DNA from: Sphingosinicella sp. BN140058
GTDB taxonomy: Bacteria; Pseudomonadota; Alphaproteobacteria; Sphingomonadales; Sphingomonadaceae
Length of the DNA: 64,000 bases
Assembly: GCF_004135585.1 (NCBI RefSeq)
Contig: NZ_CP035501.1
Span: 5,031,501 to 5,095,500, forward strand
Direction of reading: 5' to 3'
Each line of letters starts with the position of its first letter. Positions within the stretch are counted from its first letter, which is position 1. The notes beneath the pieces were generated by a model, which saw only the letters and a program-made list of their open reading frames with translations, made no database searches and was not told the DNA's origin. The position numbers were made by a program, and so were the translations under genes. Of this stretch, positions 29,481-34,134 are shown in pieces.

Positions 29481-29509
29481 TTGACAGACGCCGCCGACCC
29501 CGGTTTACA
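29481..29509 (+). promoter_or_regulatory. Promoter of the chrA transcription unit
   Basis: A consensus -35 TTGACA, a 17-bp spacer and TTTACA as -10. It ends five bases before the conserved leader, so transcription should begin at or next to the first base of that leader. The chrB leader is preceded by a matching TTGACA box. Confidence 0.6.
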
Positions 29510-29514
29510 GAGGC

Positions 29515-29585
29515 GATGGGGGCTGCGATCACCCCATGAGGCGACAGGCTGAAGCATCGCGTCCTGATTTTGAAGAGGACGCCTC
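29515..29585 (+). promoter_or_regulatory. Structured leader of chrA, homologous to the chrB leader
   Basis: A 71-base leader. Hairpin 1 pairs ATGGGG (29516-29521) with CCCCAT (29532-29537). Then follow GAGGCGACAG and GAAG. Hairpin 2 pairs GCGTCCT (29559-29565) with AGGACGC (29576-29582). The second strand of hairpin 2 contains the Shine-Dalgarno, three bases before the ATG of the 44-codon gene. The same blocks in the same order precede chrB (34026-34099). This suggests a cis-acting RNA that controls translation; the ligand, if any, is unknown. Confidence 0.7.
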
Positions 29586-29720
29586 ATGCCTGCAATCGAT
29601 GCCATTCCTCCGAACGAGCCTGAGCCTGTGACCGGGTGCCCCCGATGTCGGGGCATCGTCGCTCTGTGGTCGGACGATGACACCTGGGTCTCCCAGCCGC
29701 CGCAAGGGGCGCGGCCGTGA
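29586..29720 (+). CDS. 44-residue CPRC-containing small protein coupled to chrA
   Basis: A short gene with GAGGAC five bases before its ATG. The product starts MPAIDAIPPNE, contains GCPRCRGIVALW, and has no membrane segment. The CxxC pair could bind a metal or change redox state. Its stop shares GTGA with the start of chrA, so ribosomes must finish it to reach chrA. The first ten residues resemble the start of the ChrB-like protein (MPALNSIAPE), so it may be a remnant of a duplicated chrB 5' end that now serves as a leader peptide. Function unknown. Confidence 0.65.
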   Translation: MPAIDAIPPNEPEPVTGCPRCRGIVALWSDDDTWVSQPPQGARP

Positions 29721-30973
29721 TCGATGAAACCAATAGCGATGCTGCAGTGGTGCCGGACGTGATCACGTCTGCGCCGGCCGATGCGGCTGAGGCGCGGCCG
29801 CCAGAGCTGAGCTACGCCGCGTTGTTCCTGCGCTTCCTTCGCTTCGGGATGCTCGCCTTCGGCGGGCCGGTCGCACAGATCGCCATGATCCGGCGCGAGC
29901 TCGTCGACGACGAAAAGTGGATCGGCAGTGCTAACTTCAACAAGCGGCTTGCCGTGATGCAGGTGTTGCCGGGACCGGAAGCGCACGAGCTTTGCGTCCA
30001 TCTCGGGATCCGCGCGAAAGGGCGTCTCGGAGGGGTGCTGGCGGGGCTCGGCTTCATGCTGCCCGGCTTCGTGCTGATGCTTCTGCTCGCATGGATCTAC
30101 ACGCGCCTTCCGATCAACGGGACATTGTTCGGCGCGATCTTCCTCGGCGTCCAGGCGGCCGTGCTGGCCGTCATCGTGCGCGCCGTGCACCGCATCGGCG
30201 AGCACATTCTCCTCGACGCCTGGCTCTGGATCGCGGCGCTCGCTGCAGCCGCGGCATCCTTCCTGGGTGTGAGTTTCTGGATCGTGTTGCCCACGGCGGG
30301 GGCGGCCTATGCCCTTGGATCGACCGGGCGCTATGCCCTGACGTCACTCGTCCTGCTCGTCGGCGCGGTCGCGGCCGCATGGACGATCTTCCCGGACGAG
30401 ACCATCCCGGCGGCGCGAGCGGCGATGCGCGAGGCGGCCCCCACGACGATGTCTCTGTTCCTGGCGGGGCTGAAGGGCGGGCTGCTGACGTTCGGCGGCG
30501 CCTATACCGCGATTCCGTTCGTCCGCAACGACACCGTCGGGCGCGGCTGGATGACCGACGCCCAGTTCCTGGACGGGCTCGCACTCTCCGGTGTCCTGCC
30601 GGCGCCGCTGGTCATCTTTTCGACCTTCGTCGGCTGGATCTGCGGCGGCCCTGCGGGGGCGCTGGCGATCACCGCCGGCATGTTCCTGCCGGCATTCGCT
30701 TTCTCGCTCGTCTTCTACGAGCATCTCGAGGCGGTGGCCGAGCACAAGCGTCTGCAGCTGTTCCTTTCAGGCGTGGCGGCCGGCGTAGTAGGCGTGATCA
30801 CGATCACCGTCCTGGACCTTGGCCAAAAGACCGCGGTGCGGACGCCCAATCTGTTGCTCAGTGCAATGATCTTCGCGGTCGCGCTGACGGTGATGTATCG
30901 CTGGAAGAGCAAGCTGGCGACACCGGTCGTCCTTGCCGCTGGAGCTCTGGCCGGTGGACTTGCTCTCGCATAG
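29717..30973 (+). CDS. chrA: ChrA chromate/oxyanion transporter
   Basis: 418 residues with about ten membrane segments, the length of a two-domain ChrA. Both CHR repeats are visible: LRFGMLAFGGPVAQIAMI with EKWI, and LKGGLLTFGGAYTAIPFV with the following RGWMTDAQFLDGLALSG. LPGPEAHELCVHLG and LPAPLVIFSTFVG are the paired P-rich loops. ChrA exports chromate, driven by the membrane potential; some homologues handle other anions. The GTG start overlaps the stop of the 44-residue gene (GTGA). Expression is probably set by the structured leader upstream. Confidence 0.93.
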   Translation: MIDETNSDAAVVPDVITSAPADAAEARPPELSYAALFLRFLRFGMLAFGGPVAQIAMIRRELVDDEKWIGSANFNKRLAVMQVLPGPEAHELCVHLGIRAKGRLGGVLAGLGFMLPGFVLMLLLAWIYTRLPINGTLFGAIFLGVQAAVLAVIVRAVHRIGEHILLDAWLWIAALAAAAASFLGVSFWIVLPTAGAAYALGSTGRYALTSLVLLVGAVAAAWTIFPDETIPAARAAMREAAPTTMSLFLAGLKGGLLTFGGAYTAIPFVRNDTVGRGWMTDAQFLDGLALSGVLPAPLVIFSTFVGWICGGPAGALAITAGMFLPAFAFSLVFYEHLEAVAEHKRLQLFLSGVAAGVVGVITITVLDLGQKTAVRTPNLLLSAMIFAVALTVMYRWKSKLATPVVLAAGALAGGLALA

Positions 30974-31065
30974 CAGCGGACATTGGCCTCGAGGTGAGGA
31001 CCTCGAGCGGCGCATCGGTTATTCGTCCGGGACGCCCTCGTCGAGCCACAGGTGCGACGCTTGAG

Positions 31066-32133
31066 CTACGCGTCCGGTGCCTTGGCATCGCCGGACACAG
31101 CGCCGGCTGGTGGCATGGCGGGCGGATCCGGGCGGCATTCGCCGAACGTCTTGTTCATTCCGGCGAGGTAGGACGGTAGTGGGTCGAGCTCGAACTCGGC
31201 GCGCAAGCGATCGACCGCTTTTTCGTCCTCCACCGGTTGCGGCAAGCGCTTGCCGGCGCGGCACATGGCCTGCGTCGCGAAGCGCTGCTTTCCCGTGATC
31301 TTGAGCATCACCCGATCGTAGAGGTAGGCATAGTTGCGCTTGCCGACCTCGCCGGTCGCAACCAAGGGCTCCATCAGCCGCAGCGCCTGAAGCTGGAACG
31401 CCGGATCGGCATCCGCATGCTGGACGAGCAGCCAGGCTTGTTGCGAAGCAGGCTCGCCCACTTCGGAAATTCTCGGCCAACCCTGTTCGGAGACGATGGC
31501 TTTCAGCCACTCCGTATTGTCGTGGTCACGCTTGCTCAAGGCGATCCCGATCCGTGCGACGACGATGGCCCGAGCATCGGGCGTCAACGCCGGGGCGTCC
31601 TTCATGACCCCATCGCCCCAGCCGGTCGCCGTGCGCAGCATCTGCTCGCCGAGCGGCCGCGCGAGCAGCGCGTCGGCGAGATCGGGGCGTCGTGGCCGCC
31701 CGATCCGCTCGGCCTCGGCAACCGCCATCAGATACGTGTCGGCCACCGGCTTCGCGGCGGCGAGGGCCTGCTGGAATTCGGCGAACGTGTTCGCCGCGAG
31801 CGGCTGGGGCAGGTGGGCGACGGCCGCGCAAAGCGGATCGCTGATCGCGTTCCGCTCGATCCTGGCACCGGCCACATTCAGTTCGGCGAGCTTCGCGCGC
31901 CGATCCGCTTCATCCTGTTCGTGGCAGGCCGTGAGCCAATTTCCGATCTCTCTCCATGCAGCCTTGTCGGCGGGCGTTGAGTCCGCGAAACGGCCGCGCA
32001 TCCATCCGTAATCGCCGGGTTCGAAATCGCCTCCGCGAACATAGGGCGCGAGCGAGGTGGGCGGCGGCGGAGCCGCCGTCGCTGCCGCCGACAGACTCGC
32101 CAGCGCCACGGTTATGATCAAGAGCCTGCCCAT
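31066..32133 (-). CDS. Exported DUF6624-like protein
   Basis: 355 residues. A signal peptide (LLIITVALASLSAAATAA) is followed by a mature part whose C-terminal half matches the DUF6624 pattern: NTEWLKAIVSEQGWP, SQQAWLLVQHADADPAFQ and RNYAYLYDRVMLKITGKQRF. The family has no known activity. A Cys pair (about positions in LTACHEQD and DPLCAAVAH) could form a disulfide. It lies between chrA and the tRNA-Lys pair, on the opposite strand to chrA, with no other gene in its transcription unit. Confidence 0.85.
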   Translation of the reverse strand: MGRLLIITVALASLSAAATAAPPPPTSLAPYVRGGDFEPGDYGWMRGRFADSTPADKAAWREIGNWLTACHEQDEADRRAKLAELNVAGARIERNAISDPLCAAVAHLPQPLAANTFAEFQQALAAAKPVADTYLMAVAEAERIGRPRRPDLADALLARPLGEQMLRTATGWGDGVMKDAPALTPDARAIVVARIGIALSKRDHDNTEWLKAIVSEQGWPRISEVGEPASQQAWLLVQHADADPAFQLQALRLMEPLVATGEVGKRNYAYLYDRVMLKITGKQRFATQAMCRAGKRLPQPVEDEKAVDRLRAEFELDPLPSYLAGMNKTFGECRPDPPAMPPAGAVSGDAKAPDA

Positions 32134-32342
32134 CTCGTTAAACTCGCAAGATTGGCGTCAACGCGCAATGCGTCTGCGTGGACGATGCCGAGCTGGCGCG
32201 ACCGCGTCGAGGAGAGAAGCACCTGCCTCCCTTGTGGAAGACAGATGTTCGTGTTACGTTCCTTCGTTGGGCTGGGCGGAGATGAGACCGTGCCTAGCGG
32301 GTTCTGAGCACGTCTTTGAAAATGTAAACGGGAACGGCCAAG

Positions 32343-32375
32343 CCGGGACAGTCGCTGTGCGCGCGGCTGTCCCGG
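32343..32375. other. Stable 13-bp hairpin in a non-coding stretch
   Basis: CCGGGACAG pairs with CTGTCCCGG, continued by a G-T pair and CGC/GCG around a seven-base loop. No T-run follows on the plus strand. It may belong to an untranslated RNA or mark a transcript end. Confidence 0.4.
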
Positions 32376-32495
32376 ATGGCCCTGCTGTGGAGACAGTTGT
32401 TCGGCGGTGAGCCGTCTTGCGACGCCGGTCTCTCGCACGCGCTGTGCGGCAGCGTGCTTCGCGGGCGCGACTGCGTCGCTTCACGGGCAATCGTG

Positions 32496-32527
32496 AAAAA
32501 CGACCGTAATTTCGGTCAATACGGTCG
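32496..32527 (-). terminator. Rho-independent terminator of the tRNA-Lys pair
   Basis: On the minus strand CGACCGT and ACGGTCG form a 7-bp stem around a 13-base loop, directly followed by TTTTT (plus-strand AAAAA at 32496-32500). It lies 70 bp downstream of the second tRNA-Lys to be transcribed. Confidence 0.75.
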
Positions 32528-32596
32528 CGCAAAAGCGGGATTGACGCCGTCACACGCGCGGCTGCCATGCTGATGAGGATTGGCGTGAGAAGAAGG

Positions 32597-32672
<76 letters not shown>

Positions 32673-32721
32673 GATGCCTTCGGGCCGGGCCGGAGCCTTC
32701 GCCTGGGGTCTTCGAAGAAGG

Positions 32722-32797
<76 letters not shown>

Positions 32798-32818
32798 AAT
32801 GCCTTGCGGCTGGAGGGC

Positions 32819-32847
32819 CCTCTACGGTCGCTCCGGAACGATTGCAA
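32819..32847 (-). promoter_or_regulatory. Candidate promoter of the tRNA-Lys pair
   Basis: On the minus strand TTGCAA, a 17-bp spacer and TAGAGG, followed by a GC-rich discriminator (GGGCCC) as often found before stable RNA genes. The predicted start is about 15 bp before the first tRNA. Confidence 0.4.
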
Positions 32848-32893
32848 CCACGCATTTGCCCTTATCCACATTCTCGGAATGAAAGGGTGGCGT

Positions 32894-33130
32894 TCAAGGA
32901 CCGTACTTCGTCCAGCGTCCGATTGGAGCGTCCTTGCCGTGCAGAACCGCATCGAGCTCCAGGCGGAGTGCTGGGGCGAGCGTGCGCAGGTTGATGAGGC
33001 CGTCCTTCCCATCGAACCCGGCCCGTGCCTGGCCGTCGACCGCCTCGTAGCCGAGGCGCGACGATCCCGAGAGCTGAAATCCGTGGCTCGCTTGCGCGCA
33101 GACGGGCCCTGCGATGGCGCCGAGCGCCAT
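32894..33130 (-). pseudogene. Remnant of an outer-membrane porin (alginate-export type)
   Basis: 78 residues. The signal-peptide part (FGMALGAIAGPVCAQA) and the following GFQLSGSSRLGYEAVDG and ARAGFDGKDGLINLRTLA resemble the N-terminus of sphingomonad alginate-export-family porins, which are normally around 400 residues. Here the homologous part stops after about 55 residues. Upstream, ATG CGA TAA TGG CTG puts a stop between a likely original start and the hydrophobic core of the signal. The piece lies between the tRNA-Lys pair and the ChrB-like gene, so it looks like debris from a rearrangement. The family match is from memory. Confidence 0.55.
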
Positions 33131-33200
33131 CCCGAACAGCCATTATCGCATCAGCCGTGCCTGGCAGCAGGCACGTTCCGAACGCGGCCCGAGGCGGCGC

Positions 33201-34025
33201 TCATGCCCGCACCTCGCGGGGCGCATGCGAGGTCCAGTCGTGGGTCTCGCCCCTGGCGTCGCGGCACCAGCGGTAGAGCGCGTCGTAGAGGAGCATGCCG
33301 GCGTCGAGCTGCTCCAGATCGTCCGCATACATGCGCGACAGGCCAAGCGACATCGCGAGCAGGCCGGCCGCCTCCGGTACCAGATCGGGCCGCCCGGTAT
33401 CGGCTCCCCGCACGATCGCCGCGAGATGGTCGATCGCCGCAAAGTCGCCAAGCCCGAACATCTCGATCATAAGGTCGAACGTGCAGCGCTCCCCGCGATG
33501 GCTCCAGAAGACGTCTTCGTGGGCGACGTCGAACGCCGCCGCATTGCGGTCGCGGGCAACGGCGAGAACGTCGGCGGCAGGCACGAACAGAAAGCGTGCG
33601 CGCGGATCGACGAAGCGGCGGATCAGCCACGGGCAGGCGATCCGGTCGACCTTGGGCCGGGCGCGCGTGACCCACAGGGTCCGACCCTGGCTATCCCTCG
33701 CCGGAAGCTTGTCGATGTCGATCCGCGGCAGCCCAGCTGCCTGCCACGCCTCGAAACCGCCGTCGAGCGCCTCCGCCGGGATGCCTTCGGAGCGCAGCCA
33801 GGCGGCGATGCCGTGGGCGGACGTGCGCCCGTCTTCGTCGACGACGACGGCAGACGTGGCGTCGAGCGTCGGGGACCAATGCTCCACCTCCTCAGCGGAG
33901 AAGCGGATCGCGCTCGGGACGCGATGGGTCTTCTCGCCCGGGCGAACGTCGATGATCGCCGGCGCGGCGGGCGTGCCGACCAGGCGGGCGAGCTTTTCGG
34001 GAGCGATGCTGTTCAACGCGGGCAT
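33201..34025 (-). CDS. chrB: ChrB-like chromate resistance protein with rhodanese-like N-domain
   Basis: 274 residues. Residues about 15-125 form a rhodanese-like fold (PAIIDVRPGEKTHRVPSAIR, then LDGGFEAWQAAGLPRID), but the usual active-site Cys region reads VVVDEDGRTSAHG, so sulfur transfer is unlikely. Residues about 135-270 match the ChrB C-terminal domain: VDRIACPWLIRRFVDP, AFDVAHEDVFWSHRG, TFDLMIEMFGL and AGMLLYDALYRWC. ChrB proteins are linked to chromate resistance and regulate or assist ChrA. The start is fixed by AGGACGC three bases before the ATG, in a leader that is homologous to that of chrA. chrA itself lies 2.2 kb beyond the 3' end, convergent. Confidence 0.88.
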   Translation of the reverse strand: MPALNSIAPEKLARLVGTPAAPAIIDVRPGEKTHRVPSAIRFSAEEVEHWSPTLDATSAVVVDEDGRTSAHGIAAWLRSEGIPAEALDGGFEAWQAAGLPRIDIDKLPARDSQGRTLWVTRARPKVDRIACPWLIRRFVDPRARFLFVPAADVLAVARDRNAAAFDVAHEDVFWSHRGERCTFDLMIEMFGLGDFAAIDHLAAIVRGADTGRPDLVPEAAGLLAMSLGLSRMYADDLEQLDAGMLLYDALYRWCRDARGETHDWTSHAPREVRA

Positions 34026-34099
34026 GCAGCGTCCTTGTTCGACAATGGGAGGACGCGAGTCTTCGGCTGTCGCCTCGTGGGGAGACCGCCGTCCCCATC
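34026..34099 (-). promoter_or_regulatory. Structured leader of chrB, homologous to the chrA leader
   Basis: Read on the minus strand: GATGGGG, hairpin 1 pairing TGGGGA with TCCCCA, then GAGGCGACAG (34067-34076), C-GAAG, and hairpin 2 pairing GCGTCCT (34050-34056) with AGGACGC (34029-34035). As in chrA, the Shine-Dalgarno is in the closing strand of hairpin 2, exactly three bases before the ATG. Loop lengths differ (14 versus 10 bases) while the paired blocks are kept. Confidence 0.7.
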
Positions 34100-34104
34100 G
34101 CCGG

Positions 34105-34134
34105 ATATTCACGCGAACGCGCCGGCCTTGTCAA
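34105..34134 (-). promoter_or_regulatory. Promoter of chrB
   Basis: On the minus strand TTGACA (34129-34134), an 18-bp spacer and GAATAT, or 17 bp and TGAATA. It ends about five bases before the conserved leader, the same distance as at chrA. Confidence 0.55.

Follow-up and report, generated by a model that had tools for sequence, protein, structure and literature searches.

Paired chrB-a leaders ahead of chrA and chrB in Sphingosinicella sp. BN140058: candidate translational riboswitches for chromate or a close correlate

Why would two separated genes carry the same RNA leader? The question is raised by a window of 64,000 nucleotides from Sphingosinicella sp. BN140058 (NZ_CP035501.1, positions 5,031,501 to 5,095,500; "the window" below is this whole stretch), in which a unit with the chromate transporter gene chrA converges on chrB and each is preceded by a short leader. 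We propose, with a probability of roughly 60%, that the two leaders are cis-acting translational chrB-a riboswitches of the ON type for chromate or a close correlate; that they are riboswitches appears likely from sequence comparison. Both match the Rfam family chrB-a (RF03078) far over its gathering cut-off of 43.9 bits (74.5 bits, E 1e-10, on the chrA side; 73.2 bits, E 2e-10, on the chrB side), cover positions 1-80 of 80, including both consensus helices, and are the sole RF03078 matches at E <= 0.001 in the host genome. The related family chrB-b (RF03086, cut-off 36.5 bits) has no match at gathering score anywhere in the window. Aligned with each other, the two leaders are identical in 62 of 80 columns (score 40.5; the highest of 2000 shuffles is 13.5), which bears out the homology described in the first-pass annotation of this DNA, and both lie at the places given there. 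The blocks listed there (GATGGGG, GGGG/CCCC, GAGGCGACAG, TCGCGTCCT, AGGACGC and ATG) are present, the calling of chrA and chrB as convergent genes agrees with matches to PF02417 and to PF00581 plus PF09828, and the half-remembered motif named after chrB is, by full-length match, chrB-a. One part has to be corrected: leader and chrA do lie on the plus strand as described, and the unit opens with a 44-codon open reading frame (ORF), not with chrA.

The pair are ordinary members of a catalogued orphan RNA family. The chrB motifs are listed in Rfam as cis-regulatory RNAs, so far unexplained, and the open-licence literature yielded no ligand or mechanism for them; they reportedly stem from a 2017 paper. 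New here are the promoter distance, a contested pairing, the list of targets, genomes free of ChrB, and the remnant of chrB before chrA.

The 5' half of the leader is predicted to fold as a three-stem pseudoknot made of P1, a small conserved middle hairpin, and the P1 loop paired with the strand after that hairpin; downstream, P3 would hide the Shine-Dalgarno (SD) sequence (coordinates in Table 1). P1 and P3 are the two helices of the Rfam consensus, which differs in having neither pseudoknot nor middle hairpin, and one P1 pair is non-standard in the chrA-side leader. In an excerpt of Rivas 2020 (PMC7657543), chrB RNA is listed among the families with a covarying pseudoknot. Two chrB-a alignments bear on the structure, A3 with 90 rows (84 distinct) and A2 with 80 (74 distinct), both fitted to P1 and P3 of the Rfam model, from which the pseudoknot is absent. 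On A3 the whole structure (P1, middle hairpin, pseudoknot and P3) is paired in 96.1% of cells and 11 of 18 pairs show double-sided changes, values reached by none of 500 shuffles, which ignore relatedness, and by no slid version of the structure. The pseudoknot by itself is also paired in 96.1% of cells over the 84 distinct rows, with changes on both sides in three of its five pairs; the changes found are G-C to A-U, A-U to G-U, and U-A to A-U, U-G, G-U and C-G. A2 gives 99.0% for the whole structure and 99.7% for the pseudoknot, and its number of further pair types is reached by one shuffle in 500. The middle hairpin is paired in every distinct row of both alignments, its sole change being G-C to G-U; since this variation is one-sided, we regard it as conserved rather than proven.

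Compensatory changes among relatives are found in P1, P3 and the pseudoknot. Family, structure and promoter position are well supported. The first-pass annotation had suggested looking for such changes in the two stems of relatives, and P1 and P3 display them; its own example of pairing kept while bases vary fails: where one copy has an extra A-U pair, its counterpart has a G/A mismatch. A GAGGC/GCCUC pairing before the ATG, seen in the minimum-energy fold of the chrA leader, was dropped because the chrB copy has no counterpart. The same pseudoknot recurs in chrB-b with other letters (GCAG/CUGC, GCCGU/ACGGC, GCAAC/GUUGC). In an alignment of 31 rows (A4, with 28 of the 29 loci that were read, L266 being left out, plus L239, L254 and L210) it is paired in 94.8% of cells and shows 22 double changes, where shuffles give 7.6. 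Two other counts are not decisive: pairs that carry a double change (3, compared to 1.8 in shuffles, with 42 of 500 reaching the value) and further pair types (reached by 51 of 500).

How could such a structure act on translation? In both chrB-a and chrB-b, the two bases that end the 3' strand of the pseudoknot also begin P3, and P3 contains the SD sequence, six bases before the ATG in both window copies. Because the two pairings overlap and P3 holds the SD sequence, we propose a translational switch that works by competition. We retain both pairings, since a complete P3 with a short pseudoknot counts as well on A3 as the version with the full pseudoknot. The contested bases are paired in P3 in the minimum-energy folds of 146 of 150 chrB-a leaders (excluding the rows L023, L210, L024, L254, L025 and L255, three distinct sequences, of which L210 and L254 were counted with chrB-b), and the median loss is about 6 kcal/mol when they are kept unpaired. 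In chrB-b, they are paired with a probability above 0.5 in 28 of 30 leaders, the exceptions being L277 and L286; plain shuffling of the downstream sequence would give 17.6. The two elements that define a riboswitch would have their counterparts here, the structure as putative aptamer and the SD helix as expression platform. In the resting state, P3 would be complete and translation low. A signal would lock the pseudoknot, P3 would lose its bottom pairs and the ribosome site would open, and ChrB and ChrA would be made together.

The promoter stands at a fixed distance from the leader. On the chrA side, the RF03078 match starts 32 bases past the first base of TTGACA and 26 past its last. Over 170 leader rows (153 distinct, with weak and false rows kept in), TTGAC starts 31-35 bases before the match in 144 of the 153 distinct leaders; in a control stretch placed farther upstream it occurs in 5 of 153. 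Among the nine leaders that lack it are the false L025 and the weak L023, L024 and L197. Counted to the best -10 match, the spacer is most often 17 bases long (69 of 142). Two chrB-a leaders outside the 170 rows, L004 and L005, both before chrB, have TTGAC at -33 and -32. Given that this distance is fixed, the RNA probably starts at the chrB-a motif or within a few bases of it, in which case the leader is the whole 5' untranslated region. The leader had earlier been placed about five bases after TTGACA; this hexamer is the -35 box, and what the leader follows by a few bases is the -10-like hexamer.

On the chrA side, the leader opens into a short ORF that starts with MPAIDAI, compared to MPALNSI in chrB. 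Its first 36 bases are identical at 25 of 36 positions to the best of 148 chrB 5' ends (median 19), against a maximum of 20 (median 12) for the 1734 other ATG 36-mers of the window. Since the ORF begins like chrB, the leader probably moved to the chrA side together with the beginning of chrB, and the chrA copy would have arisen by duplication of the leader and the first chrB codons. The leader copy would drive the short ORF; because this ORF is seen to overlap the chrA start, chrA is probably translated by coupling to it. The arrangement at L006 looks alike by eye, with a chrB start followed by chrA in a different frame. In L201 and L209, again by eye, the short ORF behind the leader starts like chrB.

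What do the leaders precede elsewhere? The commonest targets are chrB, then chrA. Over the 170 rows, which include the duplicates L022/L256, L023/L210, L024/L254, L025/L255 and L145/L209, the next ORF is chrB in 152, chrA in 7 and the short ORF of the window in 1, with no match in 10; the latter include L196, where chrB follows after a long insertion, and L025/L255. This last match (G317, 33.9 bits) was rejected as false, as no chr gene follows, and its row was retained in A3 and in the promoter count. Leaders of the chrB-a type precede chrA in the window and at L006, L159, L197 and L201 and, with a short ORF between, superoxide dismutase at L209 and a DUF1259 protein at L195. L199 and L191 lie directly before Alginate_exp-type outer-membrane porins and are the only good porin targets. 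At L198, two leaders are 750 bp apart. One is followed by chrB and, judged by resemblance, chrA; the other by a TorF-like porin fragment, possibly a broken fusion, that lacks the N-terminus of its family. The two leaders that match both chrB models, L210 and L254, lead into chrA. For chrB-b, 29 of 45 places were read (L269 is not among them): the target is rhodanese-ChrB in 7, ChrB_C alone in 2, chrA in 6, a major facilitator superfamily (MFS) transporter in 5 (L263, L265, L270, L276 and L283; two of them checked with Pfam and three assigned by resemblance), an ornithine-cyclodeaminase-like protein in 2 (L257, L258) and a Cj0069-family protein in 1 (L273), and none could be assigned in six (L259, L266, L267, L268, L277, L278). 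In chromate operons chrC encodes superoxide dismutase, and their gene set of chrB, chrA and superoxide dismutase is found among the targets. Because of these target genes, the signal may be intracellular chromate or a close correlate of it.

Of the 396 genomes of the order, 24 have a match; the class has 30 such genomes among 385, and a phylum sample that overlaps the other two has 32 among 299. A single match, L196 in G910, lies outside the class. At 43.1 bits it falls just short of the cut-off, and it precedes chrB and, judged by resemblance, chrA. It has a long insertion before the SD strand and, as it lies in a genome of another class, horizontal transfer is likely. The first-pass annotation had also asked for homologous genes without the leader; among the best 80 of 108 rhodanese-ChrB loci found by ChrB similarity, 79 have it, and the remaining stretch (L110) begins inside the gene. 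The class sample contains 41 rhodanese-ChrB_C fusions: 31 have a chrB-a leader (all 31 full-length by profile), 6 a chrB-b leader over the cut-off and 2 one just below it, and 2 are without leader (L243, L247). The remaining ChrB_C proteins are stand-alone (nine loci have a separate rhodanese-like ORF), fragments, or ChrB_N + ChrB_C proteins; nine of ten tested proteins of the last kind were confirmed, and none of these nine has a chrB-a or chrB-b match nearby. Two leaders before chrA, L210 (5001-5084) and L254 (5001-5080), bridge the families, being over the cut-off for chrB-b and under it for chrB-a. Since they match both models, they suggest that chrB-a and chrB-b, for which Rfam gives no clan, form one superfamily. 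The two have in common P1, the middle hairpin, the loop-to-3'-strand pseudoknot, the contested bases of the SD helix, and chrB and chrA as targets; they differ in the sequences of pseudoknot and P3, and the window copies stay under the chrB-b cut-off.

Could ChrB itself operate the leader? ChrB would then bind its own leader and that of chrA and repress translation until released by chromate, which we consider improbable. In its favour, a ChrB_C domain follows 31 of the 32 chrB-a matches of the class sample at 343-378 bp (all but the window's chrA copy), all 30 matched genomes there have ChrB_C, and rhodanese-ChrB is without the ChrB_N domain; the ChrB of Ochrobactrum tritici probably binds DNA by its N-terminal part, according to an excerpt of the study (PMC3817168). 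However, a search for PF09828 that covered the 385 class genomes and 13 genomes whose leaders are unusual or weak found no ChrB_C match in 12 genomes, at least 99% complete, that have a chrB-a or chrB-b match at E <= 0.001 (G242, G855, G937, G062, G317, G712, G656, G019, G560, G491, G005 and G025). In 11 of them the leader stands before chrA, directly or after a short ORF; those over the Rfam cut-off are in G242 (80.2 bits), G855 (49.1), G062 (41.9, chrB-b), G712 (53.7) and G656 (36.7). Five less complete genomes (70-95%) likewise have chrB-b over the cut-off without ChrB_C; in their longer flanks two targets could be read, an MFS and an ornithine-cyclodeaminase-like protein, both of them in G571, and none could be assigned for L289, L290, L291 and L294. 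As near-complete genomes keep the leader before chrA without ChrB_C, ChrB is unlikely to be a general binder and is probably no obligatory partner of the leader, and a riboswitch is favoured over a ChrB-bound leader, though an unrelated RNA-binding protein might act on it instead. A riboswitch and a protein-bound leader were the two options of the first-pass annotation, whose structured translational leader is upheld.

A sensor RNA for another signal (Cr(III), sulfate or another oxyanion, a thiol or oxidation product, or general stress) is possible, if rather doubtful: the MFS, ornithine-cyclodeaminase-like, Cj0069, porin and DUF1259 targets are not all classical chromate genes, whereas chrB and then chrA are by count the usual ones. 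The chr system of O. tritici raises a different alternative. It is chromate-inducible, as the present one is proposed to be, and likewise has chrB, chrA and chrC among its targets; it differs in that its ChrB regulates by binding DNA at an operator, compared to a rhodanese-like N-terminus and an RNA leader here; the excerpt of that study (PMC3817168) reports DNA binding by ChrB, loss of the chromate response upon C-terminal changes, and an inverted repeat in the chr promoter as putative ChrB site. The leaders adjoin a promoter too, and their inverted repeats might bind a protein on DNA, with RNA folding incidental. We find this scarcely credible, given that the P1 loop covaries with a strand beyond the second hairpin, that the compensatory changes in P1 and P3 fit RNA pairing, and that neither leader accompanies the nine confirmed ChrB_N + ChrB_C proteins. 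It is also very unlikely that the chrA copy is a mere duplication relic, its likeness due to chance or shared ancestry without function. It does carry the chrB remnant, as L201 and L209 seem to, but its structure is intact at 74.5 bits, and leaders of both Rfam types precede chrA in many genomes.

Several observations weigh against the chromate-responsive riboswitch that we prefer. In folding energy the single leaders do not stand out from shuffles (z = -0.30 and -0.29), so that single-sequence folding by itself lends the structure no support, and the minimum-energy fold of the chrA leader has P1 and the top of P3 without the middle hairpin and the bottom of P3. The counts for P1 and P3 lean towards these helices because A2 and A3 were fitted to them, and the shuffles take no account of relatedness. 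Double-sided changes are limited in A2 to one of the five pseudoknot pairs, with three pairs invariant, and the chrB copy of the window forms four pseudoknot pairs only, compared to five in the chrA copy. After loss of two pairs, P3 still has a median of -6.7 kcal/mol in chrB-a leaders, and its opening may therefore be partial. The outer two pseudoknot pairs scarcely vary anywhere; the contest thus rests on conservation, not on covariation. Finally, just five of the 12 near-complete genomes free of ChrB_C have a match over the Rfam cut-off, and that of G317 is no chr leader.

Regarding the genes themselves, the rhodanese-like domain of the window ChrB has Asp where the catalytic cysteine would stand; in 148 aligned rows including this protein, the column holds C in 132, D in 13 and G in 3. 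Between the chrA and chrB units lie, on the minus strand, a DUF6624 protein gene (PF20329, 31066-32133) and tandem tRNA-Lys(CTT) genes (32597-32672 and 32722-32797).

Table 1. Coordinates of the two leaders, their predicted pairings, promoter elements and genes in the window
Feature	Positions	Strand	Details
chrB-a leader, chrA unit	29513..29588	+	RF03078, 74.5 bits; match takes in ATG
P1 hairpin, chrA leader	29517..29536	+	29517-29521 with 29532-29536
Pseudoknot 5' strand, chrA leader	29525..29529	+	GCGAT in P1 loop, pairs with 29556-29560 ATCGC; family covariation
Middle hairpin, chrA leader	29540..29550	+	GGC 29540-29542 with GCT 29548-29550; conserved
Pseudoknot 3' strand, chrA leader	29556..29560	+	last two bases, 29559-29560, also open P3
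P3, SD-hiding, chrA leader	29559..29582	+	29559-29565 with 29576-29582; SD AGGA 29576-29579
-35 box TTGACA, chrA side	29481..29486	+	sequence
-10-like TTTACA, chrA side	29504..29509	+	17-nt spacer; sequence
44-codon ORF, chrB-like first codons	29586..29720	+	TGA overlaps chrA GTG; 25/36 nt identity; sequence
chrA, chromate transporter	29717..30973	+	PF02417 E 6e-71; TIGR00937
chrB-a leader, chrB	34023..34101	-	RF03078, 73.2 bits; match takes in ATG
P1 hairpin, chrB leader	34078..34097	-	fold
Pseudoknot 5' strand, chrB leader	34086..34089	-	GCGG with 34055-34058 TCGC; 4 pairs, one G-U; sequence, family covariation
Middle hairpin, chrB leader	34065..34074	-	GGC-GACA-GCC; family alignment, fold
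P3, chrB leader	34029..34056	-	34050-34056 with 34029-34035; SD AGGA 34032-34035; contested GC 34055-34056
-35 box TTGACA, chrB	34129..34134	-	sequence
-10-like TGAATA, chrB	34106..34111	-	17-nt spacer; sequence
chrB, rhodanese-like + ChrB_C	33201..34025	-	PF09828 E 1e-44; PF00581 E 4e-6

A comparison may be drawn with the fluoride (crcB) riboswitch, which the leaders resemble in layout and not in sequence. According to excerpts, the crcB RNA is also a three-stem pseudoknot with an extra hairpin (PMC11262651), and it switches on genes that detoxify a toxic anion (PMC8752731), a likeness in how the two would work only; it differs in acting through transcription termination, where translation is proposed here. 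No crcB match was found in the stretches scanned, and the window leaders match chrB-a only. Tentatively, and with more doubt than confidence, we suggest that chrB-a and chrB-b form a single riboswitch class whose ligand is chromate itself and whose pseudoknot, built like that of the fluoride riboswitch, switches translation in a two-base tug with the SD helix, and that the leader would be the complete sensor in genomes with leader plus chrA. Those that have both without ChrB allow a direct test of sensing by RNA. If the reading is true, an RNA would sense a toxic metal oxyanion, and the leader would be a compact, ready-made chromate biosensor.

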